Assembly (NCBI GenBank): GCA_017506865.1
Contig: JAFCMP010000074.1
Location: 186,001-250,000 of the forward strand
Direction: 5' to 3'
DNA from: Tribonema minus
Taxonomy: Eukaryota > Sar > Xanthophyceae > Tribonematales > Tribonemataceae
DNA: 64,000 nucleotides
In this document: in pieces, positions 3,001-54,448 of the stretch
How positions within the stretch are numbered: the first letter of the stretch is position 1
How the letters are laid out: every line of letters starts with the position of its first letter
The notes under the pieces: generated by a model
Told to the model about the DNA's origin: nothing
Database searches by the model: none
The model's input: the letters and a program-made list of their open reading frames with translations, nothing else
Translations under genes and position numbers: made by a program

Positions 3001-6000
3001 AAACAAGATTAATGCATCGTAACATGGCATCATTACCTTTTGCGTGGGCTGCTCTTCAGGCGCGTCATCGACTGCAGTCGGAGCAGCAGCACCATCTTCA
3101 TCCTGCGCAGTTGCTGCCTCAGCCTGTTCTGGCACCGCTGCCTGCAAAGACAAGGCAACGTTGTTTCAGGCCAACGTTGCTTCAGGCCACGTTGAAAGCG
3201 GCGGCCCTCGCACTGGGCACAACGTGACACATAACGCCAAAAGCTGCCCGCCCTTCGTAGTCTTGTCGCTGTGCAGCACAGGACATCGTCATAAATGCAT
3301 CAACCTCTTGCACTGACAGTCACGTGGCACAGGTGATGTGGCACGCCACCAACAGCCTACCCGACTGCGAAAGCCGCAGCCATGACAACTTTTGCAAGCG
3401 GCAGAGTCAAACCTTTTGCCCGCGCCCTGAGAGTTACTGCTTATTTCTGCAAACCTTTTGCCCGCGCCCTGAGAGTCACTGCTTATTTCTGCAACAAACA
3501 ATTGTCGACAGTAATCGAGTTCATGTCACACTCTTGACCTTAAAAAGACCGTATTGCCGTACACAAGCCGCAAACACATGACATCCACATTTGCAAACGC
3601 CTCATATGCGTCATGCGCCGCATTACCAATTGCAATCGGAAACACCCACGCACCGCTGTCGTGCGCCCCTCATGCATCATACGCCGCATCACCGATTGCA
3701 ATCGCAATCGCAATCGCAAACACCCACGCACACGCACCATTGTAGTGTGCCCCCTCTCGCGCTCCTCCGCCTCGTGCAGGAACTGCGCGCGAATCGGCGC
3801 GGCGCTCTCCTGCAGGAAGGACACCAGCTCGAACACCATGGGCTCGCCGCGGCCGCTCTACAATTTGACATCAAACACGGGGGTGCAGTGAGGTCAGCTC
3901 GGTGTGTTGAAGCAGTGAGGTCAGCTCTGCGTGTTGAAGCAGTGAGGTCAGCTCTGCGTATTGAAGCAGTGAGGCCAGCTCAGCGTGTAGAAGCGTCTTT
4001 GGCTTGGTGCACATTGCGCTCCTCGTCTCAGGCGGCGACTGGTAGCTGTTTGACAGGCAGCAGCGCTCTGCAAAGACTGGAAGTGCATGGCTGAGCGCGC
4101 AGGGATTTCGCACGCCACGCAGGCTTGTGACCTGCACACGCCTGCGCCAAGCCCCTGATGATGTATTTGTCAGGTTGAGCACGTTGCTTGGCCGTGTGCC
4201 AAAAACTGACTGGACGCAGTGTGGTCCTGAGGGTGCCTGAGGACTGCTATTGAATGCTGCAGACACGCTTGGAGTCGATCAATAGAGGTGTCACTGCGCA
4301 AAGGACAACACCAATTAGACTTAGGATAATTGTGACGTATGCTCACCAGTTCATTGGCCTTCCGCGCTATGCCGACCATCAGCGCTCGCGCCAGACCGGG
4401 GGGCAGGCCTTCACCCCGCACAAGCACCTGCACAAGGGCAGTGCAGCACAAAGATCAAATGGAGCTCACACCTGATTTTTTCAGGATGCCGTTGCTGCTG
4501 CTGCTGAAAAACAGGAACATGCAGAGTACACATGTATACTTCTGCCTCAAAGTATGCCAGTCACAATCTGTGTGCAGCAAGAATTTCACGACACGGCACT
4601 TGCAGCCATCGTAACCATGTCATTATACTGCCAAGACGGGCTCACAACGCATGAAAATAAAACCTAGTATTTTCTGCAAAGTTCACAGCATGAGGTGCCA
4701 TAAGAAAAGCAAGGCCAGGTCAAATGTGAATGCTGCAAAGCACTGGAAACATCGAGCACACGACAGTCGACATTTAGGATGGCACCCACAAGCAGTGCCT
4801 GCCCAACGTTAAGCACTCGCTTGGTCACTTGACTTCAGTTCAGGAACAAGATATATATTCGCTCCGAGTAGCTTTATGTGTAGACGGGCACTGCTGACGC
4901 AAGCGGACATCAACTGATCAGAGGCACTTCACAGGGGCGAAAACGCGCTCCTGCGCCACTCCATGCATCAGAGTACAGTCTATGAACACAGACGGTACAT
5001 AATAAGTGCTTACCAGTGGCGCTTGCTTCGGGTACGGCACGTAGTTCCACATGCGCGCCATCGGGCTGCGCCCCCCGCCCAGAGGGGGAAACAGAACCGT
5101 CAGCTGGACCTCACAGGCGGGGGCCACCGCCTGAGCGCGGCTGTCGCTGCTCGCTGCTGCCGCCAGCGCGGCGTCCAGCTTGGAGCTGAGCTCCAGCTCG
5201 ATGGTGAGCTCGTAGCGGCGCGAGTGCACGCGCTTGAAGCGCTCCGCGTAGATGGCCTCCAGCGCCGTGCGCTGCGACGAAGGCACACGTTGGTAAGAGT
5301 GGAGGTATCTTATTGCATGACAGCAGGACCCTAACCCTAACCCTAACCCTGACCCAGCGCCGTACACTGCGGCGGGAGGCGCGTGGGACAGGGTGCAGAG
5401 TTTCGGATCTTGCAGAACCATTCGTTGCGGCGAAGGTGCGCGCGGGACAGGGAGTGCGCCGCTTGGAAAATTGTAGGACTGTGGGGTTCTAATTGCGGAA
5501 CGGCAGGAAATGCAGCGTCACGGTGATAACGGGAGCAACAACTGGTGCGGTCCCTTGTCTGATATACTACACTCGCATCACATCTACTTGGTTGCTCGTG
5601 ATGTTGTCCGCCCCGCACCCGGGCTCATGGCAGCGAACATAGAGTCCTGGTGATCCATCATTGATGAATGAGGGATCTGCTTACTCACGATCTCATTTCA
5701 TCAACTCAGCGCAGAGTAAATGATTGCCAGGGTGGACGGAACGTTCAAGGATTCTCTTGTCGTATACCATATCCATGCCAGCCCATCAAACTCAAACATA
5801 AAACCTTGTGAAATTTTGGGACCGACACAAAGTCACCTCACCTCTTCTGCCATCACTTCCTTCTCTGACGCTGCCCCTTCACCATAGTCCTTTTCTTGCA
5901 GATCCTGCTGCTCAGCGGCACCCTCGAGCGCGCTCTGCAGAGAACAGGGCAAACTGTCAGCCAACAGTACTTCTGATGACGGAGCACAAGCCATGCACTT

Positions 6001-9000
6001 GAACTGACAGGTGGTGCTGCCAAATCTGTGATAGTGTGATATGTATTGCAGGTCATGATGTGCAATTCAGTACTGCGTTCCAATGTCTTTCCACATTGCA
6101 AACAGTGTCTTGTGAAAGTAGGCCTGCCAAGTGCGCAAGTGCTCAGCTCCCAGACAAGCCGCGTACTTTACGTCTGTAGAGTGATGCATGTGGGTTGATC
6201 GCATCGACTCGCACGGCAACACACAGCAAGTCACTTGAAGGAACTCCATGCCGTCAGCATGCAAAAATTGCACACGAAGGCCTGAAACTCGCCAAGTCAT
6301 TGGTTGAATGAAGGCGTCGGCGTCAATGCTTGTTTGCTGGCAGAATGCCTCGAGACACATTGTGGGTGCAACGCAGTAACGCCAAGATGCGAAATGGCTG
6401 CATATGACGCAAGGCTGGCTGCACATATTGTGACACCAGCAGCACCAGCAACTTCGGCTGCTGGGCGTGAGTGCATCACCTACTGGCCTGATTTAACTGA
6501 TGCGTGCTTTTGGTTGAAGATGAGATGAACGTGCTGCCGTGACCGATGTATCCGATACAGTAATGCTTGGCAATGGATGATGTTTGTTAGGAGAGGTGGC
6601 ACACCAATCGTGTGCCTGCCACCAAGGGGCCAACACAACATTGAGTGGTCACCAGCAGCACATCAGACAAGTGTGAGCAGGGCGCTCTCACAATAAGCTA
6701 GCCATCTTTACCTCAAATAAAAAATACTGGTGGCTTCTATTGCGATCAGAATGACAAAGATGCCGACAACAGCGATACGATACCCTCAGAGTACTTATTT
6801 ATGTGATGGTGGCTTCTATTTTTCAAAAAGCGACAATAACGCCGCTACATACAGCAACAGCAATACGATACCCTGAAATACAGGTTAAGTCACGAACCTG
6901 CACCAAGTGTGTGAGGGCGGCGGCCAGCGTGTCATCAGCAGTGGCGGAGGGGGGTTTGGGGGAGCCCCTGGACTCTCGTGGGCCCTTGCGCAGTGCCGCT
7001 TCCGCCTCCGACTGCAACATCAAAATACAAGCCAGGAAGACGTTGTGAGAGAAGTTGAACATTCAAAAGCAGCAAAGTAGTGGCCTGATAACCCTGAGCG
7101 GTGCTGGTATATGGTTGAACTACCATCGTGTGCCTGCTTCTTTTGACTCCATACGACCTATCAACGCCAAGAAGTGAGGCCTCAGAGCTGGCGAAATGTC
7201 GACAGCTGCTGATGTAACGCCAGTGCTGCGGCAGGACCTTCACGAAAGCGCATGATAACGCAAAATGTTGAACCATCAGCAACCCCATCATTATCGCTAA
7301 TGCAATGCGACAAGCAGCAGGTACTGACCTGGATAAACCCCATCCGCACAAGCTGCAGCAGAGCGCTGTCACGCGCCCAGTCGGCCTTGCTGACCACCTC
7401 CAAACTGCCTGCCGCATCCGGTCTGACACACATGTGAGAGACGATGGCAGCAGCACATTCTCAAGCCACTGGTGGAAGCCGGAAGCCACATGTACATGCA
7501 TATATCGGCAGATGCAAGGGCGTTACGAAGGCGTTGCATCATCGGCAACGCTTGCGATGGCTTCGGCGTTGCTTGACAGTACCGTATTATCTATAATTAA
7601 GCCCATGGGGCGAGTTTTTCATGAGTTTCCGAGCCCTCATAAAATGGCGCCCCACCCTTAATTTTCGCTCATATAAATGTGCCCCCCCCCTTTATGCTCA
7701 CATGCATACGCAGCATGTACCCTCTGCGTACGTGTACTATGCACACTCAGTGACTCATGCTACATCACCACATTATTTGTGCGCCTGCATGCGCTGTCAG
7801 CAGCGTGCAGAGCAGACAGAGAGGCAGCTAACAATGTAGCCAAACCCACAAAAATGCCCGGAAGGCAGCAGCTGCCTATCCGAAAGTTGAACTGGTTTCA
7901 GGAGCGGCGTAGAAGCATGCTGGCACCTCATGATGGTGTTAGATGAGCTAAAATGGCTCAAACGTTAATGCACCCCACCCTTTGTTTCTCCAAATATTAA
8001 TGGCGCCCCACCCCCCTTTTTTTGCTCTCATAAAAAACTCGCCCCATGGGCTTAATTATAGATAATACGGTATCGCATGTGGCAGCAACCGCTGCTCTTG
8101 AAGCATGTGTGATACCGTCTTTTTGTAGAACACAACGCCCTGACCAGAAGGGGCGCTGCGGTTGTCGTCTCTATCTCACACTTTGCTCTGCCTCCTACCC
8201 TACTGCGCTCGACCAGATTGAGTAGAGGCGATCAAATGCATCAACTTGAAGTAATGCAGCGCTGCAATACAATTCACATCTGCACGTGCTGCAAAGCAAG
8301 ACGCGCTTGGGCACACACATGAAAAAACTGCTGCAGCAGCGCGTACTGTCAAAGGCATCAGGCACTCTCTGACCGACACCAGAAGCGCGTGAACCGAAAT
8401 GCGCACCCCACTCACGTCTGTGAGCCTAGGGCGGAGGCGGCAAGCGCCGATGCGTCGCCAGATGTTCTGTTGGCATTGGAGCCTGCACACAGCGGATGGC
8501 GCAAGAGGGCAGGTAGCAACAGCACAGGTTCGCAATTTTAGCCATTGTGTGCGCAAGTGCTGACATGCGCCAAGACAATATGATGGTTTGTTGGAGAGTG
8601 CTGAGAAGGAAAAGAGCAGCCAACAAAGGCCAATGAGACAACAATGGTTGGTCGGTCGTTGGCGTTGGAGCCTGCTCACAGCGGGTGGCGCGAAGAGAGC
8701 GCAAGTTCAAAACTCTAGCAGTCGTGGGGGCGAGTGCTGACGTGCGCCAAGATAGTGTGGTGTGTTGAGGAGTGCTGGGAAGGCAAAGAGCACCCGACAG
8801 AGGCCAGTGAACTGACTATGGTCGGTCGGCGCTGACACAATGTTGTTTGCAGATGTGAGACAAGAGCTGAGCTGATTTTGCAGAGCTTCTTGATGTCACG
8901 TCGTGACACATAGCGATGGGAATAGATGGAATCGCTGTGAGGCACCCTCGAAGATGTGCATCTGCATGAGCAGACAAGCTATTATTGCAATGTATGATTG

Positions 9001-27800: not shown

Positions 27801-30800
27801 ATTTCGCTGCTTTCTTGCATTGCAAATTGTATCTGCTGAAATCACATTATGGTAACGTGGTTTGGTGTGCGGTGTTGTCATGCACATTCGCTTTGTCGTG
27901 CTGTCCAATGTGAGGCCGTGTGAACATTATCATGAACTCCGCATCTGCTCTGCCAGCAGCAGATGTGCTTGAACACATTGTAGTGCACGTGACGCTGCAC
28001 ATGGCGGAGTTCGCAGGGGCTGACAACGGGACGAGGATGGAGTGGGGAAAGGGATGCCATTTGGCGATGTCGTATAGGAGTGATCGTCAATGTGCATTCA
28101 GACACTTTTTCACAAGATACATGTTAACTGTAGTAGCATGTTTGATGTCAACCATGTGGGCTTTTTTGTTCCTTGAGCGAGAACTAATGAAAATGACATA
28201 TGCTTTAAACGTATACTTCGAAGAAGTAGTCTACTTGTGGAGACAAATTGCTGTTTAAATGGTCACCTCTCTTACATCACATGGCATTCGCAATCATCGT
28301 GTGCCCTAACTGCCTCTGCTGCACGACTGCTGTTCTTGATGCTGCTTGTAGGTTGATGGAGAGGCCGTAGTTGGCCTCTATCCCATTCTTTCGGGTCTGC
28401 CGAGCACCGACCAGGTGACGCGTTGGTGTGCTTGCTGATGTGATTGACACTTGAACGTCAGACACTGTGAGGCTTTGCGCCATCGTCAGACACTGCGAGG
28501 CTGTTGCTCAAGCTCAAGCAAGAAAAATTGTTTTTTTCCAAAATGGTCAAGATCTCACGCTACGCATACCACAGCATATGCCCTTGTCAGCACAGCCACC
28601 CCTTTGAAAATCATGTGATGGATTGGTTATTGAACAACCGAGTACTTTCCTCCTTTTTTGACTTGATGATTTGGGCTGTAGGTTGCTCAAAGTTTACAGA
28701 GACTCGACGGGAACTACCAAAATTATAATTTTAGGTAAAGAGAGAGTCCAACCTTCAATCATTATGAGAAGTGAAAACTTCAAGAAGGTGAAAATCCGTT
28801 GACTGAAAATAGTCGTGGGGGTTCAAGTCCCCCCGCCCCCAATTAAGGTAAACTTCTCAATTCCATATGGCTGCTTATTAATATAATTTTAATTTTATTA
28901 ACAGAGAGAGAGATGAAAGTGGGTGACATTATTCAACCTACTTGCAGCACTTTTTTAAATGGCAAAATTGAAAATTTGAGGGAACTGGTGCCTTGACATG
29001 TTGGTGACGTTGTGTCAAACGAGCAAAATGCCTGCATTGCACATGTGGCATCAGTGCCACCAGTGGATGCTGCGCCACCAGGGTGTGTGGGTGGATGCCA
29101 GCAACACATCTGCAGCAAAAAAATATTGGCTACTCTTGCAGCACAGGCATGTTCAGTATTGTAACTTCATCAAGAAAAGCATCCTGCTCCCTTGTAAGGC
29201 CACCAGTACTGTGCCCAACACATGCACCGCCAAGAGGTGAAAGTCAACAACTCAAAGCGGCAAGTAAGTCGAAGCTGTGCACAGAAAGAGTCGAGGCTGT
29301 GAAATCATCGAACATTGGCGTCGCTGTTGTTGGAGGGCACGGTTTGGTCAGCGAAAGATCCTGGCGTCAAACGCTAATGTTGTCAAGCCTTCCAATCTTG
29401 GGCCGATGCAGCTATGCTTGTGTGGTGCCACCGGTGAGCACTGCTTTTGATAGTACGGCAATGGACACGAAGTTATGCACGCAATACGCTTCCCGGCTCA
29501 TGAGCAGCGTGGTTGCAATATTTGAGTGCCCCAGACCGCGGCCGTTCGAGCTGGTTTGTGCTTTAGCCTTGATGTCTGGCAGGACTCTTGCTGAAGTGCT
29601 TGTTACAGGCGTATTCACGTTTGCAGAGCTACATAGTGGTTCTGCCACCCACCACTGTATGTTTAAAGATGCTAGCACCGCCAACGGCACCGGCAGCGTC
29701 ATATCTCTCCTGTGTGAGACCAAGGCGTACCTGACTGCGCTTGCAAAGCTAAGAGCGACAAAGCAAGCGACAGCTGCAGCTTCTCTTTCCACTAGAGCCA
29801 TCCACAGCAGCCACTGCAAGAGTGCCAACGCCTCTGCAAAGGCGCTGCTTGGCGGCGAGCACTTTGTCTTTGGTGATCTCAGAGTGGCATATGCTGCATT
29901 TACATTTACTGTTTACCGCAATGCTGGTGGCCACCAGTGGCAGCAGCAGGAACTGGTTGCATGGCTGCAGCACTCCTTGCCCGGTACCCGCATTGCAACC
30001 TCCGCAGGTTTCGTAGCCGAAGTACGACAGCTGGTGCGTTCATCCTGAGGAAATAAAAATGTCGACTATTACTTGTCGGCTATTACATGTACATGACAAA
30101 ACACAAAACAGCTTGGCCGGAGCAGCAATAGCAGCAGCGCCCATATGCTCCCGCCACACATGTTCTCAAGCTGCTGCAACCAATGTTCTCACGTTGCGCT
30201 GCAGCAGCAGCAGCAGCCGCACACAACACAACCACTGCCCACAACAACAACACTCAGCAAAAAAGGCCGACCCTCGGTTCAAGTGAGTTCGAAGCTCGTT
30301 CGAAGTCCTCAAAGGTCAAAGGATTTAAAGTTCGAGCGTCCTGGAAACTCAGAAGCAGAGTACCAGTAGCAGCACTAGTGGAGCAGACATGATGGCGTCG
30401 CCACTGTCGCCGAGCACACGCACCAATAGCAGGGATGGCCGTGTCCCTTCTCCAGACCCCACTCCTGCTGCCAAGCCGAAGAATCTTCTCAGCTTCTTCA
30501 CCAAAACTAGCAGCAGCAGCAGCGGTGGCGGTGGTGGCGGCAGCGCCAGCAGCACCTCAGCCAAGAGGAAGGCCAATTCAATCGATGCTGGTGACGGCGG
30601 TGGCAGCAGTGGTGGCGATGGCAGCAGCAGCTTCCCGGATCCTGCTGCTGTTGCTGCCAAAGTTGAAGCTGAGGCACGTCTGCAAACCACGCTGAGGGAC
30701 CAGAACACCACCAACGCCCTCTTCCACACCCGCTTTGACCCCTGTGCTCCACCTCCTGCAACCCTCAACCTCGGGCGATGGGCAGAGGAGCTGGTGCCGG

Positions 30801-33800
30801 TGAACGACTTCATCGGTGGCAAATTCGAGGACAGCCCCATCGCATTCATCCGCATGCCGAGGAAGGGAGCCCCCAAACCTCGGGAGCAAAGCGGAGGCAA
30901 GCGGCCCGTACCACGCACTTTCACTAGCGAGGTCGCCAGAACTGCTCGTGCTGTGAACATCACTGCAGATCTATTCACGGTGCCCGACGCAGTCTTCATC
31001 AAGCTCCAGGGCACGTCTTTCAACCTGCCCAGCACACCAGCGGCCACCAACATGGCTGCTGGGGCAGCATGCATCTAAGCTGCCATAAGTGACCTAGACC
31101 AGCTTTACCCCAACAGGATCGAGGTTGTGCTGGCAAAGCTGGAGATGCTGGGGGAAGAGTCGGCGAGGCCACAGCGTGTCGATGCCCATGGCATCGTGGT
31201 CATCAAGGGGATGAAGGAGGCTATGGAGATGGCAAGTGACCTCAAGATGCGGCTGGTGGCCCGTGGCGCGATGTGCCCTGCCATGCACGCCACCGACCGC
31301 ACCAGGGTGGCGGTAGAGGGCACAGGGGACACGGCACAGGGGGTATATGAATGGATCCAGTACATCATCAAGGCCAACGGTACCACCAGCAGCACATCGA
31401 TAGGCAGCGCACCAAGGCCACTCTGCAGATGGCCAACATCCCTATCATTGGCAACGTAGACGACATGCTCTTCCTCTACCACTCTCGCCAGGGTTAGGCC
31501 GTTTGTTTTACACAGCTTTGATATGCAAGGATGATGAGTTTGTCAGCAGCAGCACTGCGACTCCTTTTGGCTCTGCAGATTTGAAAGATGTGACCGCACA
31601 CAACACACATTCGAAGTGGGTTTAAACACGAAGACTTGGCATGCTACTACTGTCTCTCTGTGTCCCACTTCTGCTAGAGTTCTTGGCTTGCTGTGTACCT
31701 GTGCACGCATGCTCACATGGCTGCAGATGTGTTGCTGGCATCCACCCACACACCCTGGTGGCGCAGCATCCACTGGTGGCACTGATGCCACATGTGCAAT
31801 GCAGGCATTTTGCTCGTTTGACACAACGTCACCAACATGTCAAGGCACCAGTTCCCTCAAATTTTCAATTTTGCCATTTAAAAAAGTGCTGCAAGTAGGT
31901 TGAATAATGTCACCCACTTTCATCTCTCTCTATTAATAAGAAATCCAAATGAACAAAGTTTTCAGGAAACTATCAGTCCTTTAAAGCTTTTTGATAGCTC
32001 AGGTAGTGCGGAAAAAGTAAAATTTATAGGTTTTAAGTTAAAACCTAAAAAAAAAAAAAGCTAAAATTATGAGTAAGATTTTCAACAAAAGAAAATTTAT
32101 TATAATATGTTATTTGTTAAAACCCATAAGGAAGTTAGTGTAAAGATCCACCGATGATGGATTCAAAAAAGGAACCGAAACATTATCAGCCTTGTTAGGC
32201 AATCGTGTAAAATGTTTCCAGAGAATATCTATGGGCGTAGGTTTTTTCATATTTATATAGTGAAAAAAAAAATATTGACTATATTACATTAACAACATGG
32301 CTTCAAGATAATAAACTTAATGATTATATTGAAGATTTCCTTCTTCTAATGAAATAATTCCGTCTCTTCCTACTTTTTCTAGTGCTCCCGCTATCATTTC
32401 ACCAACTTCAATATCATTTCCGGCAGAAATTGAAGCAACTTGTGCAATTGCCTGGTTATGATCAAAACTTAAAACAGAAATATTAGGACATATTGGCGAA
32501 ATTGTTGAAGTAACTTTAGCAAATTCAGGACAAAACTTAAAACAGAAATATTAGGACATATTGGCGAAATTGTTGAAGTAACTTTAGCAAATTCAGGTAA
32601 AAAAACAGCAAAAGAATTATTTTTACTTAATGATGATGAGGATGAACTTAAAACACCGACCCTTGAAGAGTATACAACAAACTTAACCGAAGCCGCTTCA
32701 AAAGGAAAACTTGATCCTGCGAGGCTGTTGCTCAAGCTCAAGCAAGAAAAATTGTTTTTTTTCCAAAATGGTGATGATCTCACGCTACGCATACCACAGC
32801 ATATGCCCTTGTCAGCACAGCCACCCCTTTGAAAATCATGTGATGGATTGGTTATTGAACAGCCGAGTACTTTCCTCCTTTTTTGACTTGATGATTTTGG
32901 CTGTAGGTTGCTCAAAGTTGCAGCAGAGTGCAGCGCATCAATGGCAGCATTCAGTGCATCTATAGTGACAATTAGGATAGCAATTGCCATCATTTGGGCC
33001 CTTGCGCCTGCGCTGCTCAACAGTCGCAGAAGCGCATGAGCGGTGAAAAAATATAAGTTGAGCGTCGCGTTGCGGTCACTTTCCGTCAACACTGAGAGTT
33101 TGCGCGAGCACAGCAGAGAGTCCTGGCAACAAGACTTCATCTTAGTCTGATGCAGAATGTGCTCTAGCTGACCTGCGCTGTGGCTGCGCTGAATTGTTGC
33201 GCAGGCCTCAGCTGGTGGTGGAGATGTCAGCAGTGCTCATACCGGCACCCTACACGACTCCCCTGATGAGGATGAAGACGAGTTTGTGTATGAAAGCTGC
33301 ACCAGTCTGTTCCGTCAGCCCAGCGGGCGAGCCAGTGGCACCATGTCTGGCTACTTCACTTTTGTACCCGGGTAAGCGTGCAAGTCCATGGCGTCATCAT
33401 ACATTCCCTGTAATGGATTTTTTGGAACACGTGCCTGTTCCCCATCAACAACGGTGGTGTGACAACTGCACATGTGATGCTGATGCTTGCCCTTCTTGAA
33501 CGGTCCAATACATACTCTCTCTTCAAAAAACTTCCTCCGTTTCACTTTATTAGGCTGTTCACATTGCACAGAACATTTGACGAGCAAAACAGCTCCAGTG
33601 GCGCACACATCCCTTATGTCAGCAACAGACAATTTCAAGGGCTTTCACATGCACCCATCAGTTTCGAAATCGGTTCACATAACAGGAAGTTATCAATCTG
33701 CAAACACGAGGGTTAGGGTTTGGGCGACTGAAAAAAAACGGCAAAACTGCAAGTTTGAACTTGCGCGATTTCGAACATCGAAGACATGTAGCACCACACG

Positions 33801-37549: not shown

Positions 37550-38028
37550 TTACATGGGCACTGCTTTGGTGATGAAGTCGCCGTTGTCGCGCACCGTGAG
37601 GCGGTACTTCGCCGCAGTACCAGCGGCCGCCACCAACGTTACGGCCTCAGACATCTTGTTGGACGACTGGTTGGAGGTCCCGTTTGAGTGCGTGTTGCTG
37701 TGCTTGAGTTTGTTCTCGAATGCAGCAGCGGCCGAGGGCTGAAGCCTGACACCAGGAACTATGCGAATGTTGGCCTCCATTCCCAACTTGGTGGTGGTGT
37801 TGTGCTCATCGGTGTAGGTCTCGCTGGCGGAACTGTCAGCGTGAGTGGCAAGCACCTGCTCCATTGTCACAATCTTGGTCATGACGCCTGTGCCGTGGGT
37901 GTTGTCCATGACAATCTCCGTGTACACCTCCTCTGGCACCTGCGGACAAGCAACGGCAGGGGTCAGGAGTGTCGTGTTGTTTTGATGATGAGTGTCTTTG
38001 CTTTTGGTGAGTTGTACTCATGAATGTA

Positions 38029-38794
38029 GGCGAGGTGTGCCCATGGCGGTGCAGTGACGTGAGCCCCACCTCCACGCATGCGATCAGCTGCCCCAGCCAG
38101 CACATACGGGGGCACAACGCGACACACACTGCCCAAAAGCGGTGCCTACAGCGCATCTTGAGACAGCACCATGTCTCTATTGTCCGCAATGAGGACGCTA
38201 GCGTCTTCAAGGTACCGGGGTATCGGGCGGACACAGTCATTGACCCAGGGTGTCTGCACTTTAGCAGTGCATACCGTAACAAGGGAATAGTGCTAGACAC
38301 AAGTGTGCGCGCACCCACAGCGAGCTCGTACCTGACAGGCAAAACAAATGCCTCGAACACGGACGGCTATGCTGCTGGGGTGGGGGAGGACGCGAAGGTC
38401 AAGCACCACACCGGCACCTTGACGTCATCTTGGGCTTTTGTGCCATTCGTGCAGGAGTCGTACGGACGGCTGGGCAAGCAGACAAGCCTTTTTGTTAAGG
38501 AATTGGCAATGCACTCAGCACTGTGCTCAGGGGGGGGGAAGGCAGATGTGTTACGCAAGGCCGGGTTAGCTAAGCGTCAGATCCACATTGAGCTGAGCAT
38601 ATCGCTGGCGCGGGAGTTGGCGGAGCGCGTCATGGCATACACACGTGGAGCGCGAATGCTGGGCTGTGTTGCGGCGCCGGTATCCAAACTCCTAGGGCAC
38701 AGCGCAGACTAGGCTGCTGCGTTGACGCAAGCTTTTCGATTGCATAGGCAACCCGGCCTCCCTTGGGCCTTTATAAATACAAGTCCATACGTAC
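38029..38794 (+). mobile_element. 5'-truncated LINE, copy 1 (C-terminal endonuclease region and 3' end)
   Basis: Encodes the end of a non-LTR retrotransposon ORF2 (stop at 38710-38712): a zinc knuckle-like VCPWRCSD with THAISC, RGHNATH, then PGYRADTVI and IVLDTSV, which fit the PD-(D/E)XK restriction-like endonuclease that follows the RT in R2/NeSL-type LINEs. The 3' UTR is about 80 bp and ends near GTCCATACGTAC. The RT domain is missing. It lies in the last intron of the minus-strand gene, antisense to it. Confidence 0.82.
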
Positions 38795-44264: not shown

Positions 44265-45250
44265 GTACGTATGGACTTGTATTTATAAAGGCCCAAGGGA
44301 GGCCGGGTTGCCTATGCAATCGAAAAGCTTGCGTCAACGCAGCAGCCTAGTCTGCGCTGTGCCCTAGGAGCTTGGATACCGGCGCCGCAACACAGCCCAG
44401 CATTCGCGCTCCACGTGTGTACGCCATGACGCGCTCCGCCAACTCCCGCGCCAGCGATATGCTCAGCTCAATGAGGATCTTACGCTTAGCTAACCCGGCC
44501 TTGCGTAACACATCTGCCTTCCCCCCCCCTGAGCACAGTGCTGAGTGCATTGCCAACTCCTTAACAAAAAGGCTTGTCTGCTTGCCCAGCCGTCCGTACG
44601 ACTCCTGCACGAATGGCACAAAAGCCCAAGATGACGTCAAGGTGCCGGTGTGGTGCTTGACCTTCGCGTCCTCCCCCACCCCAGCAGCATAGCCGTCCGT
44701 GTTCGAGGCATTTGTTTTGCCTGTCAGGTACGAGCTCGCTGTGGGCGCGCGCACACTTGTGTCTAGCACTATTCCCTTGTTACGGTATGCACTGCTAAAG
44801 TGCAGACACCCTGGGTCAATGACTGTGTCCGCCCGATACCCCGGTACCTTGAAGACGCTAGCGTCCTCATTGCGGACAATAGAGACATGGTGCTGTCTCA
44901 AGATGCGCTGCAGGCACCGCTTTTGGGCAGTGTGTGTCGCGTTGTGCCCCCGTATGTGCTGGCTGGGGCAGCTGATCGCATGCGTGGAGGTGGGGCTCAC
45001 ATCACTGCACCGCCATGGGCACACCTCGCCCTGTATGCCCCACCCGTCTATGAAGATCGCAATCAAAATCATCGTGGCTGCTGCCATACTGGACATGGGC
45101 GCCGCACCCGGGCGGTCATTGGCAGTGGGTGGCACGCTCATCCACGCCATTGCCCCGGACGCACGCTGGCTGCGCAGCTGCGCCAGGACCCGTGCGCTAG
45201 CCTGTTGGCGTTGCTGCTGTACTGTACTACTTCTAGTTAGCAGTACCATA
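44265..45250 (-). mobile_element. 5'-truncated LINE, copy 2, inverted relative to copy 1
   Basis: 44265-45030 is nearly identical to copy 1 (38029-38794) in opposite orientation and equal in length (766 bp). It extends further 5' to about 45250, adding the pre-knuckle LINE segment (RASGAMAWMSVPPTANDRP). Stop at 44349-44347. It lies in the intron between exons 45528-45373 and 43275-43123, in the same sense as the host gene. The 5' junction is set from the end of the coding similarity and is approximate. Confidence 0.82.
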
Positions 45251-47593: not shown

Positions 47594-50500
47594 CTACGGA
47601 GGAGCCGGCGGTTCGGCGCTGGCCGGCGAGGGCCGCGGCACTTGCAACAGTGCGATGCGGCGGTAAGCGCTGACGTCGCCATCAGGGGCAATGACTGCGT
47701 TCCAGTTGTCGATCACGACACGTGTGAGCGCGCGCTGTAGCGCGAGGGAGGTGCGGCGGCGCCAGAAGGCAACGCGCTGCGCGAGATTGTAGCTGCCCTG
47801 CGAGCTCTGCTCGGCGAGTGCGTGTAGCAGCGCTTGGGTGTCGCGTGACATAGCGCCGAAGTGGTCAAAGGCTGCGGAAAATAGGGTGTGTGTAGTGGGG
47901 TCCAGGGCCCCTGAGACTACGTATGTGTCTATCTTTTCCTGCGAAGCCGATTCAAGCACGCGCTGCACATCGCGCGCGCCCCCCTGAGCCTGACGGAGGC
48001 GGGAGGGGCATGAGCTGTCACGTATGGTGACGTCTATGCAACAAGCTACTTCAAAGCCGCCGCGCAGTTTAGTGCACCGGCCTGCTGCTACCGCGTCGGC
48101 GCTCGGCTGCACTTTAGGGACTGGAAGGCAGACCTGGTTGCTGCCAAAGACGATGTCCATGAACTTGTTGAACCCGTGGCGCGCCGCGTAGCGGCGGAAG
48201 GGGGCAAGGGTGTCCCGGTCGAGACCGCGGAGGTGGGCCACCTGCTTGAGCAGCTGAAAGAGCGCGTCTGCGAGCAAGTTGTGTCGCGTGACGTTAAGCC
48301 CTTGTGTGCAGCGGCGCAGGTGGGCACCCGAGTCCACTGGTCTATGGCACTTGGGGCACCGCGCCGCAGCGGGGGCGGGGCGCTCCACGCCCAGGTGGCG
48401 CCGCAGCGTCTCGCGGAATTCCGGCGGGGACATGGTCTCCGCTGGGTCAGTGCTCGGCAATTGCGCCAAGAAACCCATGGCCCCCTTAGAGGCGCCGCTG
48501 CGCCACGCCGCGACTGCTTCCAACGCATTTGCTGCTTCAAGCCGACGCAGCTGCGTGGCGGCGAGCGCTGCGTCTAGCACCCGTGATAGCGCCGCTTGAC
48601 GCCGCGGCAGCACGGCGGCCGGCGGGGCCTGGGCAGAGCCTGGCTCGCGCGCCACCGCTGGCGCAGCAGCGCGGCGCGCGCCGGCGCGAGTCCGCATGCC
48701 CGGCCCCGCAGCTCCGCCTGCCCGTTGCAGCAGATCGCGCAGCGCCCGCCATGCGCCGTCGTCCTGGCGCCAGTCCTGGTACCAGACCGTGGGCAGGAGC
48801 AGTGCGAGGGCCGCTGCAGCCTCATCGCTGCCGCTGCGCAGCTGCTGCAGGCAGGTAGCTATCTGGGTGAAGGTGAAGCCATAGCGGGCATGCTCTAGGA
48901 CGCGGCTGCGTGCCGCGACTGGAAATGCCGCCAGTGCCGGCCCCATGCACTCGAGGGAACGTGCAGCAAATGCGGCACATGCACGGGGCGCCGCGCCCAG
49001 CACGCCAAAGCCACCACTCCCCAGCCGCAGATGCACGCGTACCTGCTGATGTGCTGGTAGCGTCACTGGGGCCTCGCCACCCCAGTCGGCGCCGCGTACC
49101 CATGCCACTGCCGCCGCCCACAGAGAGGGCGGCGCCGCCGCCGCCGAAACCGCCGGCGGGCCGCGGCAATCGTCACCCGCCGCCGGCGCGCGCTGGTGGG
49201 CCGGCGGCGTAAGACCCGCCGATGGCTCCTGCGCCAGCGCGGCCACGGCCGCTAGCGTGATGGCGTCGAAGCGCCGTAGCTCCTCGTGCGTGAGGGATGG
49301 CGCTGTATTGCGCGAGACATGCCCTGCGCGGGCGGGGACGGCAAGACGCAGAATGGAGAAGGCAGCCTGCACATCCTCCATCTGCACAAGCTCCGCAACC
49401 AGGCGGTCGGTGCCGGGGGCACGAAGGGTCGCCGCCACTTGCGCGCGCACGAAGCCCTCGGTGCCGACCGGCACCCCCATCAGCGTGATGCCGTCGTCAC
49501 ATACTGGTACGGGGACATTGGCGGCGGCAAAGACGGCGGCGGCGCGCTCGCGGGCGCCGCCTGAGGCCGGCACCACCGCCGCGCATTTCGTGACGTTGAC
49601 CTGAATGTTGAGCTCGCTCAGCGCCTGTTGTATGAAGCAGAACGCGCGGCCAACGTGGTCGAGCACCGGCGCGTCACAGCTGGGCGTCATGATGGTGAGG
49701 TCATCGAGGTAGCCCGGAAGCGCCAGTTGCGGGAACTTGGCGCGGGCAGCCACCATGGTGCCGCGCAGTGCCAGCGCGAACAGCAGCGGCCCCAATGGGT
49801 CGCCCTGCTGCACGCCCTGTTGGGAGAGGATGATGGCGGCGTCGGCGTGCCCATCTAGGCCAAATTGTAGCCAAGGGGCCCGGCCGGGGCCGTAGATGTG
49901 CTCGACGTAGCCGTACAGGCCAGGCAGATGCTCGGCCACCGCGGTGAGGACTGCCGAGCGCGACAGCGCGTTGAAGGCATTACTGCCGTCAATGGCAAGG
50001 AGCACGCCGCCGCACTCATGCGTGAGCTGCGCCATGAGCGCCACTCTCTCTGCGCCCCCCCGCGCGCCGACCCCAAACTGGCCAATTGGTTCCAGCAGCG
50101 CGGAGACGCGGTCCCGGGTGTCCGTGCAGAAGGTGCGGGCGAACAGGCGGCGGATGGTGTCGCCGCACGCGATGGGGCGCGCCTTCTCGCCCACAGCGCT
50201 GAGGCGCGCGGCCGCGTGAAGGCGCCAAAAGGGGGCGGGCAGCGCGGCGGGGGTGGAGTACACCGCGGTACCCAGCCACGCCAGCAGCTCAAGGAGCCAG
50301 TCAACCGTGCGCCCCGACGTGTGCGCCGTGTGCCGGACGCACTGCTGGAGGTGGGAGTTGCGCAGCCCAGAGGGACCGGCGGCCGAGCCAGGGTTGGCGG
50401 CGAGGATGGCCTCGCGTAGCCCGTCCGCCGTGAATGAAGCGCAGTTGAGTGGTGCCGGCGCCGCCAGCGCCGCCGCCGCCACCAAGCTGCGCGCCCGCGA

Positions 50501-51760
50501 TGCCGCGGCATCCAGCTTCGCAGACGCATCGCCAGCTGGGTGTTTAGCCTGCAGTTTATGCAAGGTAGCAGAGTCGCGGGGGGCAGATGTGTCAGCACCC
50601 TCCGCCAGCAGCCGCGCGGCGCGCCCGACGCCGCCCGGCTGCCGCGCCGTCGCCGCCGCGCGTTCCCGCACTGCCGCCGCCGCCTCCGTCATAGACCTAG
50701 CGCGGCGCGTGCACGCACGGGCGGCGCCGCGGCGGCAGAAGGCCAGCGCTGTGCGCGTGAGCAGGTCCAGGTCGCCTGCCACGAAGGCCGCAAAACGGTG
50801 CGCCCGCGGCAGGGAGCCGTCGGGTACAAGCAGCAGGCACGGCAGCAGATGCAGCAGCTTGCACCATGCACCGGCTGTGGCGGACGCCTGTGCCGCTGCC
50901 TCAACCCCGTGTGCCTGCGCTACCGCCGTCTGCGCTTCCCGGAGGCCCGCCAGCGTGGCCGTCAAGGCGGCTGTGAAGTCCGAGCGGTGCTCCAGGCGAA
51001 TGCGGCGGCCGACCACCAGTTGCTGCTGCAGAACATAGTCAAAGGAGAGGTCGTCAAGCGCTGCGCGCGCGGGCGAGAGCGGCGCCAGCGTCCAGAGCGG
51101 AAGCGCGCTGCGCCATGTTGGCCCTGCCGCAGCCACAGCGGCAGCTGCGCGGGCGCCGGGGCCGCGCGCGCCGCCGCTGGCTGTAGAGAGGGGGAGGATG
51201 GGGGGCAGAGGCGCGACGCGGGGCCCGTGTGGCCGCTGCGTTGCGGCCGCCCCCCGGGACTTGTACAGGTGGTCGCGCTGGTGCAATTTCGTGCGCACGC
51301 ACCCTGGCTCGCCGCACGAGGCGCATGCGCAGAGTAGCAGCTCGGGTTCCACGGCGTAGTAGGTGCCCGCGCCGGCTCGGTGGAGAGTCAAACACTCATC
51401 GTCGACCGCCTGCATACGCGCGAGAAAGTCGGCAGGCACATTCGGATGCTCGCGGCGCTGGTGATCCGCCAGCGTCGTGGCGATGCGGCGCGCCAGCGCC
51501 AGCGACGCCGACGTCTGCGCCGTGAGCGTGTTCGCCTCCCCGTTCCGGCGGAGGCGCGGTTTGGGCACTGGCACCCGAAAGAGGCAGCCAGTGTCATATA
51601 AAGGGCAGCGCGGATAGATGGCAGCTGTTGCAGGCTGAGCGGGCGCCTGCACTGCCTCAGGCTGCGCAGGGTCTATGCCCGCCGCGGCAGCCGCTGCTGC
51701 AGCAGCAGCTGCCGCAATGGCCGCCGGTGCGGCTCCCCCTGAAGTAGAGTCAGACATCAT
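47594..51760 (-). CDS. LINE ORF2: reverse transcriptase with N-terminal zinc fingers and C-terminal endonuclease
   Basis: 1388 aa. N-terminus: CCHH-type finger (CPLYDTGC with HQRREHP, residues about 53-105) and a second Cys/His cluster (CACASCGEPGCVRTKLHQRD, about 147-166). RT domain about 450-800: PSGLRNSHLQQC, ARPIACGDTIRRLFAR, motif A LLAIDGSNAFNALSR (about 588-602), motif B QQGVQQGDPLGPLLF (about 645-659), motif C GYLDDLTIM (about 683-691), which has YLDD instead of the common YADD. Then a zinc knuckle CPKCHRPVDSGAHLRRC (about 1140-1156) and a PD-(D/E)XK-like region (CCIDVTIRDSSCPSRLR, about 1240) with AASQEK-like Lys/Tyr residues after it. This order is that of R2/NeSL-type LINEs, which nick their target with the C-terminal endonuclease. 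No interruption of the frame. Confidence 0.92.
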   Translation of the reverse strand: MMSDSTSGGAAPAAIAAAAAAAAAAAAGIDPAQPEAVQAPAQPATAAIYPRCPLYDTGCLFRVPVPKPRLRRNGEANTLTAQTSASLALARRIATTLADHQRREHPNVPADFLARMQAVDDECLTLHRAGAGTYYAVEPELLLCACASCGEPGCVRTKLHQRDHLYKSRGAAATQRPHGPRVAPLPPILPLSTASGGARGPGARAAAAVAAAGPTWRSALPLWTLAPLSPARAALDDLSFDYVLQQQLVVGRRIRLEHRSDFTAALTATLAGLREAQTAVAQAHGVEAAAQASATAGAWCKLLHLLPCLLLVPDGSLPRAHRFAAFVAGDLDLLTRTALAFCRRGAARACTRRARSMTEAAAAVRERAAATARQPGGVGRAARLLAEGADTSAPRDSATLHKLQAKHPAGDASAKLDAAASRARSLVAAAALAAPAPLNCASFTADGLREAILAANPGSAAGPSGLRNSHLQQCVRHTAHTSGRTVDWLLELLAWLGTAVYSTPAALPAPFWRLHAAARLSAVGEKARPIACGDTIRRLFARTFCTDTRDRVSALLEPIGQFGVGARGGAERVALMAQLTHECGGVLLAIDGSNAFNALSRSAVLTAVAEHLPGLYGYVEHIYGPGRAPWLQFGLDGHADAAIILSQQGVQQGDPLGPLLFALALRGTMVAARAKFPQLALPGYLDDLTIMTPSCDAPVLDHVGRAFCFIQQALSELNIQVNVTKCAAVVPASGGARERAAAVFAAANVPVPVCDDGITLMGVPVGTEGFVRAQVAATLRAPGTDRLVAELVQMEDVQAAFSILRLAVPARAGHVSRNTAPSLTHEELRRFDAITLAAVAALAQEPSAGLTPPAHQRAPAAGDDCRGPPAVSAAAAPPSLWAAAVAWVRGADWGGEAPVTLPAHQQVRVHLRLGSGGFGVLGAAPRACAAFAARSLECMGPALAAFPVAARSRVLEHARYGFTFTQIATCLQQLRSGSDEAAAALALLLPTVWYQDWRQDDGAWRALRDLLQRAGGAAGPGMRTRAGARRAAAPAVAREPGSAQAPPAAVLPRRQAALSRVLDAALAATQLRRLEAANALEAVAAWRSGASKGAMGFLAQLPSTDPAETMSPPEFRETLRRHLGVERPAPAAARCPKCHRPVDSGAHLRRCTQGLNVTRHNLLADALFQLLKQVAHLRGLDRDTLAPFRRYAARHGFNKFMDIVFGSNQVCLPVPKVQPSADAVAAGRCTKLRGGFEVACCIDVTIRDSSCPSRLRQAQGGARDVQRVLESASQEKIDTYVVSGALDPTTHTLFSAAFDHFGAMSRDTQALLHALAEQSSQGSYNLAQRVAFWRRRTSLALQRALTRVVIDNWNAVIAPDGDVSAYRRIALLQVPRPSPASAEPPAPP

Positions 51761-51793: not shown

Positions 51794-54448
51794 TTACAGG
51801 CCCGAGGCGCCGCCGCCTCCCTCCGATGCCGGCGGCTGGGCCGTCGAGGTGGAGAGGAAGCGGTCGGCGGCGGACTGACCTTGGGGCAGCCCGCGCGCGG
51901 GGCGTGCAGCGGGGGGTTCCGCCGCCGAGCCCGGCGTGCGCTCAGCAGCCGTGCGCTTGCGGCTGGCGCGGGGTGTGCCACTGTCGGACATAAGCGCGCT
52001 GCTGTCACTGGCAGGCATGGGGGGCTGCCTACTGCGCGAGGGGGAGGCGCTGCAGTCGCTGCCGTGCCGAGCCGCTGGCGACGATGCGCGCCGACACCGC
52101 GAGCGCCCGCGTGAGCAAGAGCGCGGCGGCTGCCGCGGCGCCGCCGCTGCCTCCAGTGCCACCGCGGGGTCCGCTGCCGCGCTTGCGGCCGCTGCCGCTG
52201 CCGCGCTGGCAGCGCCTACAGCAGGCGGCGGCGCGCCCGCCGCCGCCGCGCCTGCCGCCGCCGCGCCCGCCGCCGTTGCCCCGTCCGCCGCCACCGCCGC
52301 CGCAGCGCCAGCCGCTGCAGAGCTAGCCTCAAGGTCTCCCGCCACGGGCGTGGTGGCCACCGCGCCGGCGGCGTCCGCCGCCGGCACCGCCACGCTCGCA
52401 GCGCGCGCCGCTTCCGCTGTCAGCTGCGCCTCGAGTCGAGCGGTCGCCGCAGCGTTGCGCACCTGCTCTCCTTCGCGCAGGCTCCGTTGCTGCGCCGCCA
52501 GCCGCTCCGCACGAACTTGCTCTGCCAGAGACCGGTCGCGATCGGCCTCAGCAGCCCGCTTTCCCGCCTCGGAGGCTGCCAGCAGCTTTGTCAGTGCCTT
52601 GACCTGCTGCTGCAGCCCCTTCCGCGCGGTCCTCCCCTCCAGGATGCCCCCCTGCAGCTGCTGAATGCGCTGCTCCTGGCCCAGCTGCGCAGGGTCCGCG
52701 TCGGCCGCCGGCGGCGGCGGCGAGGCGCCCGGCGACGCGCTCGCCAGCGCGGGCGTCGAGGCGGCGGCAGCGTCCGTCGCGGCGGCGCCGGTCGCCGCCG
52801 GCGCTGGGGGGTGCGAGGCGGCGGCGCCGGTGGGCGCACGCTGCGTCGCGGCGGCTGCCGCCGCGGCGGCTGCAGCCGTGGCTACCGCAGGGGCACCGGC
52901 GGCTGTGCCAGTGGCGGCGGCTGGCGTGGTGCAGGCCGCGGGGAGCGTGGTGTGCGCGCAGCGCGTTGCCCGGCACTGCTGACCCGGGCGCGTGAAGTGC
53001 CGTCGCAAGCAGGACGGGCACGCTGTCAGATTGTCAGGGCCCAGCAGCCGCAGCGCTACTTCCGTGCCGTCCACCGCGCATAGGACCGAGTGCGCGAGTC
53101 GCCGCGCAACGCCGCGGACCACTGTTAGCTCCCAAACACCCGCGGCGCCTGGCGATGCCGCCGACGCCGGCGCCGCGGATGAGGCCGCACCGTTAATGCC
53201 TACGCCGCAGGTCTTCAGAGCGCTGGCCAGCAGCAGAAAGGCGGCGGAAGTGCCGCCGCCGCCCGCCCGCAAGCGCACCGGCGCGATGGGCATGCCAGGA
53301 GCTGCGAGTGCGGGCGCAAGCAGCATTGCAAGCTGCGCTGCAGACCACGCCGCCGGCGCGCCGCGCACGGTGACCGTGACCGGGGCGCTCATGTCACCAG
53401 CGCGGGTGATGCGCAGGCGGAAGCCGCTGAAGCTGAAGTCAGCGGAGTCGCCGACCGTTCCGAGCGCCGCGTCAACGAGCGCGGCCGGCGCCCGCAAGCA
53501 TAGCGTGCGGAAGTCATCGCGAGGCGACAGAGGCCCCAGCGTCTCTGCACCCTTGAATAGGGACGCAAGTGAGGCAGCGTCTCCAGCGCCGGCCCTCGCC
53601 GCGTCGTGCATGTGCGTGAGCGCCGCCGCTAGCAGCTGCTGGCGCCCCCGCGTGAGTCGGGCGCGGCGCTGTGCAGCCGCCGCAGGGGTGCTGCGCTCGC
53701 GCTCGTGAGGCTGACGGGCCGGCGCGAGCTCTGCTAACAGTGCGCGGACGCTGGCCGGCAAGGCAGCCAAGTGCTCCTGGGTGTAGCAGGTGACTGGATC
53801 CACCGTAAACGAGACTAGGTCTGTGCCGGCTGCCGCCGCCGGCGGCACAAATGGCTGTCCCTCCGCTGTCGGACGGCCCTGCACGCGCGCCGCCATCGCC
53901 ATGAGGCGGCCCGCAGCGGCTCCACCCTGGCGCCCCACCGCCGCGACAGCGGGGGGCACGAAGAAGTACTGCTCCTGTTCCGCGGCGTGGAACATCTCGC
54001 TCGCCTGTTGGTATAGCTGCCCTGGAGTGAGGGCGGATGGGGCTGGGGTTGGCGTGTAGCTGCCTCGGGGAGTGAAGTAGGCTCCATCGTGGCCGTGCAG
54101 CAGCCGTGCCTCCTCCCGAAGCAGGTTGCTCTTCGCTGTAAGCGACGGGGGTGTTGTCGCAGTTTTGGCGGCTTTGGCCGCCCACGAGGCAGCAGCAGCA
54201 GGAGGGGTGGCCGCGCGACCATTTGGGCCAGCTGGCGTGTCGCCAGTCGCCGCTGGCAGCACCACCTCCATCGCTTCGGATGGCATGAAACGACTTGAAG
54301 TTGAAATGGGGCGGGCCCTGCCCCGCCCCTGGGACACGGTGGCGGCTGCCCCTCGTGGAGGGTGCCGAGCGTTGGCTGAACAGCAGGCACACAGGGTGGG
54401 AGTCACCAACGTGGCGCCAGCAAAATCCACCCAGAAACGTTTTGTCAC
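51794..54448 (-). CDS. LINE ORF1: coiled-coil, Ala-rich nucleic-acid-binding protein
   Basis: 884 aa from the first ATG at 54448; an ATG at 54286 (MPSEAMEVVLPAATG) is an alternative start. The N-terminal half has a globular region of unknown fold (FTVDPVTCYTQEHLAALP, LRITRAGDMSAPVTVTVRG). A Cys/His cluster (ACPSCLRRHFTRPGQQC, with C and H after it) could bind zinc and RNA. A long coiled coil follows (QRIQQLQGGILEGRTARKGL through LRAERLAAQQ-like heptads), then long Ala-rich tracts and an Arg/Ser-rich stretch (RSCSRGRSRCRR). ORF1 proteins of LINEs coat the RNA as oligomers. Stop at 51794, just before ORF2, which suggests coupled or reinitiated translation. Confidence 0.8.
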   Translation of the reverse strand: MTKRFWVDFAGATLVTPTLCACCSANARHPPRGAAATVSQGRGRARPISTSSRFMPSEAMEVVLPAATGDTPAGPNGRAATPPAAAASWAAKAAKTATTPPSLTAKSNLLREEARLLHGHDGAYFTPRGSYTPTPAPSALTPGQLYQQASEMFHAAEQEQYFFVPPAVAAVGRQGGAAAGRLMAMAARVQGRPTAEGQPFVPPAAAAGTDLVSFTVDPVTCYTQEHLAALPASVRALLAELAPARQPHERERSTPAAAAQRRARLTRGRQQLLAAALTHMHDAARAGAGDAASLASLFKGAETLGPLSPRDDFRTLCLRAPAALVDAALGTVGDSADFSFSGFRLRITRAGDMSAPVTVTVRGAPAAWSAAQLAMLLAPALAAPGMPIAPVRLRAGGGGTSAAFLLLASALKTCGVGINGAASSAAPASAASPGAAGVWELTVVRGVARRLAHSVLCAVDGTEVALRLLGPDNLTACPSCLRRHFTRPGQQCRATRCAHTTLPAACTTPAAATGTAAGAPAVATAAAAAAAAAATQRAPTGAAASHPPAPAATGAAATDAAAASTPALASASPGASPPPPAADADPAQLGQEQRIQQLQGGILEGRTARKGLQQQVKALTKLLAASEAGKRAAEADRDRSLAEQVRAERLAAQQRSLREGEQVRNAAATARLEAQLTAEAARAASVAVPAADAAGAVATTPVAGDLEASSAAAGAAAAVAADGATAAGAAAAGAAAAGAPPPAVGAASAAAAAAASAAADPAVALEAAAAPRQPPRSCSRGRSRCRRASSPAARHGSDCSASPSRSRQPPMPASDSSALMSDSGTPRASRKRTAAERTPGSAAEPPAARPARGLPQGQSAADRFLSTSTAQPPASEGGGGASGL

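Follow-up and report, generated by a model that had tools for sequence, protein, structure and literature searches.

A gene related to the telomere resolvases (protelomerases), which are enzymes that close DNA ends into hairpins, lies between terminal inverted repeats (TIRs) in the yellow-green alga Tribonema minus. We examined it in a window of 64,000 nucleotides (contig JAFCMP010000074.1, positions 186,001 to 250,000; G000:C74:186001-250000) and in the whole host genome (G000; 158 Mb, 554 contigs). The window element belongs to a family of DNA transposons bounded by TIRs, with copies dispersed in the nuclear genome; that it is a eukaryotic TIR element had been supposed in the preliminary description. 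Its first open reading frame (ORF), ORF1, does not have the canonical active site (Arg-Lys-His/Tyr-Arg-His-Tyr): both arginines stay, and both histidines and the tyrosine are gone.

The window element

A repeat search of the window revealed inverted arms at 28886-29116 and 31720-31950 that are 96% complementary. Their core is the 212-bp inverted match without any difference that had been noted earlier, and it constitutes the left TIR (28905-29116, plus strand), with the terminal motif GAGATGAAAGTGGGTGACATT, and the right TIR (31720-31931, minus strand), the inner 205 bp being identical. TIR comparison confirmed this assignment. The 16-base terminal motif has two matches in the window, compared with none in 100 shuffles.

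ORF1 occupies 29149-30048 on the plus strand and has 299 codons for amino acids. The frame originally described, 29083-30048, does exist and contains the four sequence boxes named in it, but the ORF1 start is probably the ATG at 29149 (MFSIVTSSR...) because distant relatives retain M[FY]SI[MV]T. Downstream is an ORF2 region (30389-31497, plus strand) without a known domain, open in the window only as 30389-31078. Neither Rfam, at the gathering score, nor ARAGORN gave a match in the window.

The protelomerase-like character proposed for ORF1 is borne out by two lines of evidence. ORF1 matches the Pfam profile PF16684 at 24.9-25.1 bits (E 1.4-1.7e-5), just under the cutoff of 27, and the profile is matched by 16 of 16 members of its clade (clade II, below) at E<=0.1, some other copies exceeding the cutoff (for example 34.3 bits for C46). 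Moreover, the predicted structure is a protelomerase fold, where the preliminary description had named a fold without the tyrosine-recombinase core as an outcome that would count against it. On this profile and modelling evidence, ORF1 is homologous to TelK, TelA and ResT. Genome searches listed 78 and 52 matches with loci for 30 of each, those without a locus being unclassed.

Loss of the active site across a clade

Catalytic residues were counted, and a tree was built, from 49 rows. Clade I contributes 17 (12 loci of this genome plus P0007 and P0009-P0012) and clade II contributes 32 (30 loci plus P0001 and P0014). Rows left out are the fragments L065 and L073, two extra L032 pieces and one L045 piece; P0002-P0006, P0008 and P0013, which duplicate loci already present; the partial P0015; and L059 (C522), which scores 28 bits with PF16684 but has no BLASTP match at 1e-4. 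Many of the clade II rows are close copies, and their counts are not independent events. The tree splits the two clades with 100/100 support and places window/C51/C33 beside C101/C526/C257 (80/67); being unrooted, it does not give the direction between clade I and clade II.

The active site of TelA consists of Arg255, Lys286, Tyr363, Arg366, His394 and Tyr405, according to the available text of PMC3558466. The set R, K, H, R, H, Y is complete in 17 of 17 clade I rows. In clade II, the first and the second Arg are each kept in 31 of 32 rows, and the His before the second Arg is replaced by G, S or T in all 32. The Tyr column holds Phe in every one of the 30 rows that reach that far (L012 and L016 stop short), and the LGH column, with a letter in 30 rows, has His in two (C101 and C526, from CLPHT). 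These counts are stable over three MAFFT modes, save small single-row shifts. No clade II row has Lys at the Lys column (0/32) in the three MAFFT core alignments. In a 12-row alignment (A2) the Lys of the window's FKDAS falls on the catalytic Lys column, a spot occupied in the clade by K in 6 rows, R in 6, Q in 14, N in 4 and others in 2 (n=32). For the window the readout is R, K or gap, G, R, G, F.

The four boxes had been read as following the order of the catalytic segments of telomere resolvases, and this was right in part: boxes one and three carry the arginine pair of the active site. The box WLQHSL stands at the place of LGH..Y without its His and Tyr, and the standing of the FKDAS Lys depends on the alignment. 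The case for a dead enzyme is unaffected by the uncertain Lys or by the two rows with His, because the change of Tyr to Phe carries the argument.

Ratios of nonsynonymous to synonymous substitution (dN/dS, Nei-Gojobori) are 0.31-0.54 for ORF1 in nine clade II pairs, which include some partial frames and share copies among them, and 0.33-0.40 for ORF2 in three pairs; silent sites were saturated in the two clade I pairs tried. By these ratios both ORFs are under purifying selection, now or until recently. The dead active site of ORF1 does not stem from recent decay.

Copies and their ends

A motif of 21 bases, GAGRKGAAAGTGGGTGACRTT, occurs with up to two mismatches at 53 places in the genome, compared with 3 for a reversed control. 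Ends of the type AGAGAG...GAAAGTGGGTGAC are common to the family copies, and both ends could be read in ten copies, the window's included. The suggestion that the 212-bp repeat would lead to other copies was fruitful: C51 has both ends, 86% identical to those of the window, C33 has the right end only, C434 has one end and C185 is rearranged. Another relative, C533, is 3.4 kb long with 325-bp TIRs that are 98% alike, and has only the outer ~75 bp in common with the window. One two-ended copy of ~340 bp is too small to contain ORF1.

The left and right ends of one copy agree at 98-100% in 7 of the 10 copies (window, C51, C533, C55, C64, C101 and C89), whereas ends compared between copies of one subfamily agree at 70-95%. 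C526 and C257 have shorter TIRs, and for this reason their own ends agree at 85% and 79% when 205 bp are compared; over 143 bp in C526 and 134 bp in C257 the values are 98% and 99%. The ends of the C1 copy agree at the outermost bases only (57% over 194 columns). The ends of a copy thus evolve in concert, and end identity therefore gives no insertion date. The word “young” in the preliminary description cannot be drawn from identical ends, and the window's second gene is broken. Nor was a telRL-like palindrome seen: the three TIRs scanned have no long palindrome, only palindromes with arms of 6-8 bp, and hairpin ends are not visible in an assembly.

Insertion sites

Members of the family (C533 and C101, the window copy not being included) have inserted into sites that exist unoccupied. 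For C533, a paralogous unoccupied site is ~75% alike and its aligned flanks lie 2 nt apart, with some element-adjacent bases unaligned on either side. The C101 element lies near the edge of a high-copy repeat, and 25 of the 42 matches listed span the insertion point, ~17-31 bases into the left flank. In an alignment of six copies of this repeat, CTTG-TA-TTTATAAAGG stands against CTTGTA/ATACTTC...GAAGTAC/TATTTATAAAGG, for which a target duplication of TA would be the simplest reading. A TA beside both ends is compatible with the window, C51 and group-B copies (C55, C64, C89, C101 and C526), all five of the latter having TACTTC outside the motif at both ends. In one strict frame the TA duplication misfits some copies, since the purine before TACTTC suits C101 but not C55 or C64.

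Two copies carry copy-specific 7-bp inverted flanks directly outside their ends. In the window these are TTATTAA, with the left junction TTATTAAC (28895-28902, plus strand), which contains TA, as inverted partner of the right junction ATTAATAA (31932-31939, plus strand), whose TA is the candidate target duplication. In C51 they are ACTTGAA (L069 ~3160-3170 and 6196-6210). No such flank was seen in C533 or the group-B copies. The flanks may reflect a palindromic target or conversion running outwards.

The second gene and the search for a transposase

ORF1 is the sole gene found across all three subfamilies, although the C533 copy keeps just the N-terminal part of it open. In C51 and C33 the ORF2 frame runs on for 365-366 amino acids after its start codon; in the window an early stop is followed by loss of frame further on. 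The ORF2 of C101 is related to that of C533 (hhalign P 7.6e-5). ORF2 as a single conserved transposase is not supported, the ORF2 of the window subfamily being unmatched by the others. PF13358 (DDE_3, Tc1/mariner) has no match genome-wide, compared with matches in 3 of 14 control genomes, which speaks against a Tc1/mariner DDE_3 transposase as the mover; the genome-wide search covered this DDE family alone, not pogo, piggyBac or others.

Canonical resolvases and relatives elsewhere

The same genome contains at least 12 canonical telomere-resolvase genes with R-K-H-R-H-Y intact. These clade I loci (L039-L050) lie on contigs C179, C90, C445, C59, C524, C112, C21, C181, C223 (two loci), C1 and C346; the pairs L039/L040, L046/L047 and L049/L050 are alike along the full 3.5 kb compared, and three palindromes, all G+C-rich, were found among the loci. 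They probably represent endogenous genomes of a phaeovirus-like kind (xanthovirus). Telomere resolvases are encoded by the phaeoviruses of brown algae, a group related to Tribonema, and phaeovirus-like tyrosine recombinases are present in Tribonema, according to the available portion of PMC13236599.

IMG/VR scans yielded no confirmed relative. A protein search that depends on shared short words, with 7999 candidates scored in one round, gave P0001 (JGI) and P0014 (ENA) as the sole additions to the Tribonema protein P0015 in the dead clade. No transposon with a telomere-resolvase-derived gene was found in the PMC open-access literature, subscription papers and preprints being outside its scope, and the terms “telomere resolvase” and “crypton” are absent from the main text of PMC12477816 in its available part.

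Some clade II genes have neighbours of their own. On C224 (1076987-1080100; L035 2576-3622, minus strand; L093 3-1100 and 1437-2201, both minus strand) a clade II gene is next to a second frame of telomere-resolvase-like sequence, with ITGRRHKEIV and, by eye, also LNH..Y; an rve integrase-like frame is on the opposite strand (PF00665, E 0.0015, under cutoff). This cluster is perhaps a larger mobile element, and matches to the R motif adjoin clade II genes also at C1, C536 and C157. Neighbours at L014 (2-457, plus strand) and L017 (3107-3571, minus strand; 294-1268, plus strand) include frames that have an HNH-like cysteine pattern, seen by eye and without Pfam support, and one that has an EsV-1-7 cysteine-rich motif (PF19114, E 3e-4, under cutoff).

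Surroundings of the window element

A 172-bp direct repeat (96%) at 28523-28694 and 32748-32919 brackets an A+T-rich stretch that holds the element and also a 68-bp tandem duplication (99%) at 32463-32598. We take the left part of this stretch to resemble the group I intron and tRNA end of a plastid trnL gene, the Rfam group I intron reaching only E 0.09, and the surroundings may be nuclear plastid DNA. No match spanning an unoccupied plastid site was found for the window insertion, and a short C157 match did not resolve the site.

Further along, long frames at 38020-38712 (plus strand) and 44347-45249 (minus strand) are nearly identical by eye, in inverted orientation and without a Pfam match; part of their sequence appears, again by eye, fused with telomere-resolvase sequence in P0008, a Tribonema gene model. 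Two long G+C-rich frames at 47597-51760 and 51797-54448 (both minus strand) form a LINE-like retrotransposon, a reverse transcriptase match (RVT_1, E 1.4e-8) falling in the former.

Function of ORF1

Our favoured explanation, to which we give about an even chance, is that ORF1 acts as an end-binding or regulatory protein and that another protein does the cleavage. We favour it because ORF1 is the only gene common to the three subfamilies, the ORF2 of the window's group has no detectable relation to that of the other two, no ORF2 has a known domain, and no DDE_3 match was found in the genome. In this explanation ORF1 is a telomere-resolvase relative that has lost its chemistry but still has the fold that clamps DNA and both arginines that bind phosphate. 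It may bind the TIRs in end recognition, synapsis or repression, with cutting and joining at (probably) TA targets carried out by a subfamily-specific ORF2 or by a trans-acting factor. Within each copy the ends would be homogenised through gene conversion or the mode of replication.

Several points weigh against this explanation. Confidence in the structural model is low towards the C terminus, where the Phe lies (predicted local distance difference test score, pLDDT, 56-73 for residues 251-299), and the Lys, by alignment not conserved in clade II, is not certainly lost in the window ORF1. The terminal motif is lacking within ~1.5 kb on either side in 24 of the 30 clade II loci of the tree; either the ends of these loci are further out or the clade is not restricted to such TIR elements. 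One variant unoccupied C101 copy allows a duplication of 3-4 bp. The ORF2 of the window group has no detectable relation to that of C101 and C533, and no ORF2 of the three subfamilies has a known domain, transposases included, at a useful score. Finally, ORF1 could be a passenger.

The passenger explanation, which we consider somewhat unlikely, holds that ORF1 was captured from a relative or from a giant virus endogenous to the genome, and that it serves the element or the host as an antiviral, dominant-negative decoy on viral telomere sites, with no part in transposition. The canonical clade I resolvases in the same genome, the phaeovirus genes and recombinases cited above and the many clade II loci without a TIR motif nearby would all fit. 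However, ORF1 is present in all three TIR subfamilies while the second gene varies, as would suit a protein that works for the element, and the TIR motif, with up to nine mismatches, was not found in the stretches searched at the clade I loci.

It is unlikely that the elements are non-autonomous and depend on an unrelated transposase that acts in trans, targets TA and recognises the AGAGAG...GAAAGTGGGTGAC ends, ORF1 being irrelevant cargo. The TA beside both ends, the ~340 bp copy with no room for ORF1 and the broken ORF2 of the window would fit this, but the genome has no PF13358 match and ORF1 is conserved over divergent subfamilies.

A retooled enzyme is a similarly unlikely alternative, in which clade II would cut with other residues, such as the Cys/Ser of a C-terminal motif x-[CS]-[LMV]-P or K224, K231 and D243, while the two arginines hold the phosphate. 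Retention of both arginines, purifying selection and the invariance of E134, E149, C189, K224, N227, K231 and D243 in a 16-member alignment speak for it. Yet the window's subfamily has Ser in place of the Cys, K231 and D243 may be structural because most clade I proteins have, by eye, Arg and Asp/Glu there, and we know of no member of this fold that cuts with residues of these kinds.

That ORF1 is an active protelomerase-like recombinase, with which the element moves through hairpin resolution or through tyrosine recombination as first proposed, is most improbable: homology, fold, the FKDAS Lys in one alignment, and homogenised TIRs and 7-bp inverted flanks that would suit hairpin ends are outweighed by the loss of the nucleophile Tyr in every row reaching its column, of the His before the second Arg throughout clade II and of the LGH His in the window, and by the lack of a long palindrome in the TIRs scanned.

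We tentatively raise the idea, somewhat unlikely, of a new superfamily of eukaryotic DNA transposons formed around an inactivated viral-type telomere resolvase. ORF1 would clamp the inverted ends, and perhaps palindromic targets, which are hinted at by the 7-bp inverted flanks of two copies. The cut would be made by an unrecognised enzyme, possibly the active resolvase of an endogenous giant virus acting in trans, or by a new chemistry of ORF1 and ORF2. If the virus's enzyme does cut, the elements are satellites of a virus.

Telomere-resolvase genes have multiplied in a eukaryotic genome within small TIR elements, and loss of the nucleophile has been fixed across a clade while selection keeps the protein. 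This raises the question of how TIR elements without a recognisable transposase move and whether a dead recombinase binds their ends. Tribonema, a harmless alga with canonical and dead telomere-resolvase genes in one genome, is a system for addressing it.

Comparison with known systems

ORF1 has in common with TelA, TelK and ResT (PF16684) and the phaeovirus resolvases a homologous core, both active-site arginines and the same predicted fold. In contrast to TelA, as described in the available text of PMC3558466, it has lost the equivalents of His394, Tyr405 and Tyr363, the last of which is a His in the algal clade I, and it does not conserve Lys286; in contrast to telomere resolvases generally, it sits in a 3-kb TIR element of a eukaryote. 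We class the element as a variant TIR transposon and not as a telomere resolvase because its active site, when tested, was not that of one.

The ciliate elements Tec, Sardine and Thon, which are Tc1/mariner elements with an extra tyrosine recombinase, likewise have TIRs, a tyrosine-recombinase gene and TA boundaries, as far as described in the available part of PMC3464196. They have a DDE transposase, whereas no transposase domain was found in the Tribonema element and no DDE_3 in the genome, and the Tribonema recombinase, a member of the telomere-resolvase family, is dead. An element of their type, with an IS630/Tc1 DDE transposase next to a tyrosine recombinase, is thus not what we observe.

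Cryptons are tyrosine-recombinase transposons known in stramenopiles (PMC3212892, available sections). They have no TIRs and a recombinase with R-H-R-Y, and Crypton identity is ruled out by the lost Tyr and the 212-bp TIRs. MarCry-1_FO, in the same sections, is a TIR/TA composite held to move by its own mariner transposase, and DUF3504 is there a domesticated Crypton recombinase that has lost catalysis. A precedent for a dead binder is MrpR (YopR) of SPbeta, which has the tyrosine-recombinase fold, has lost catalysis and serves as a DNA-binding repressor (PMC10516654).

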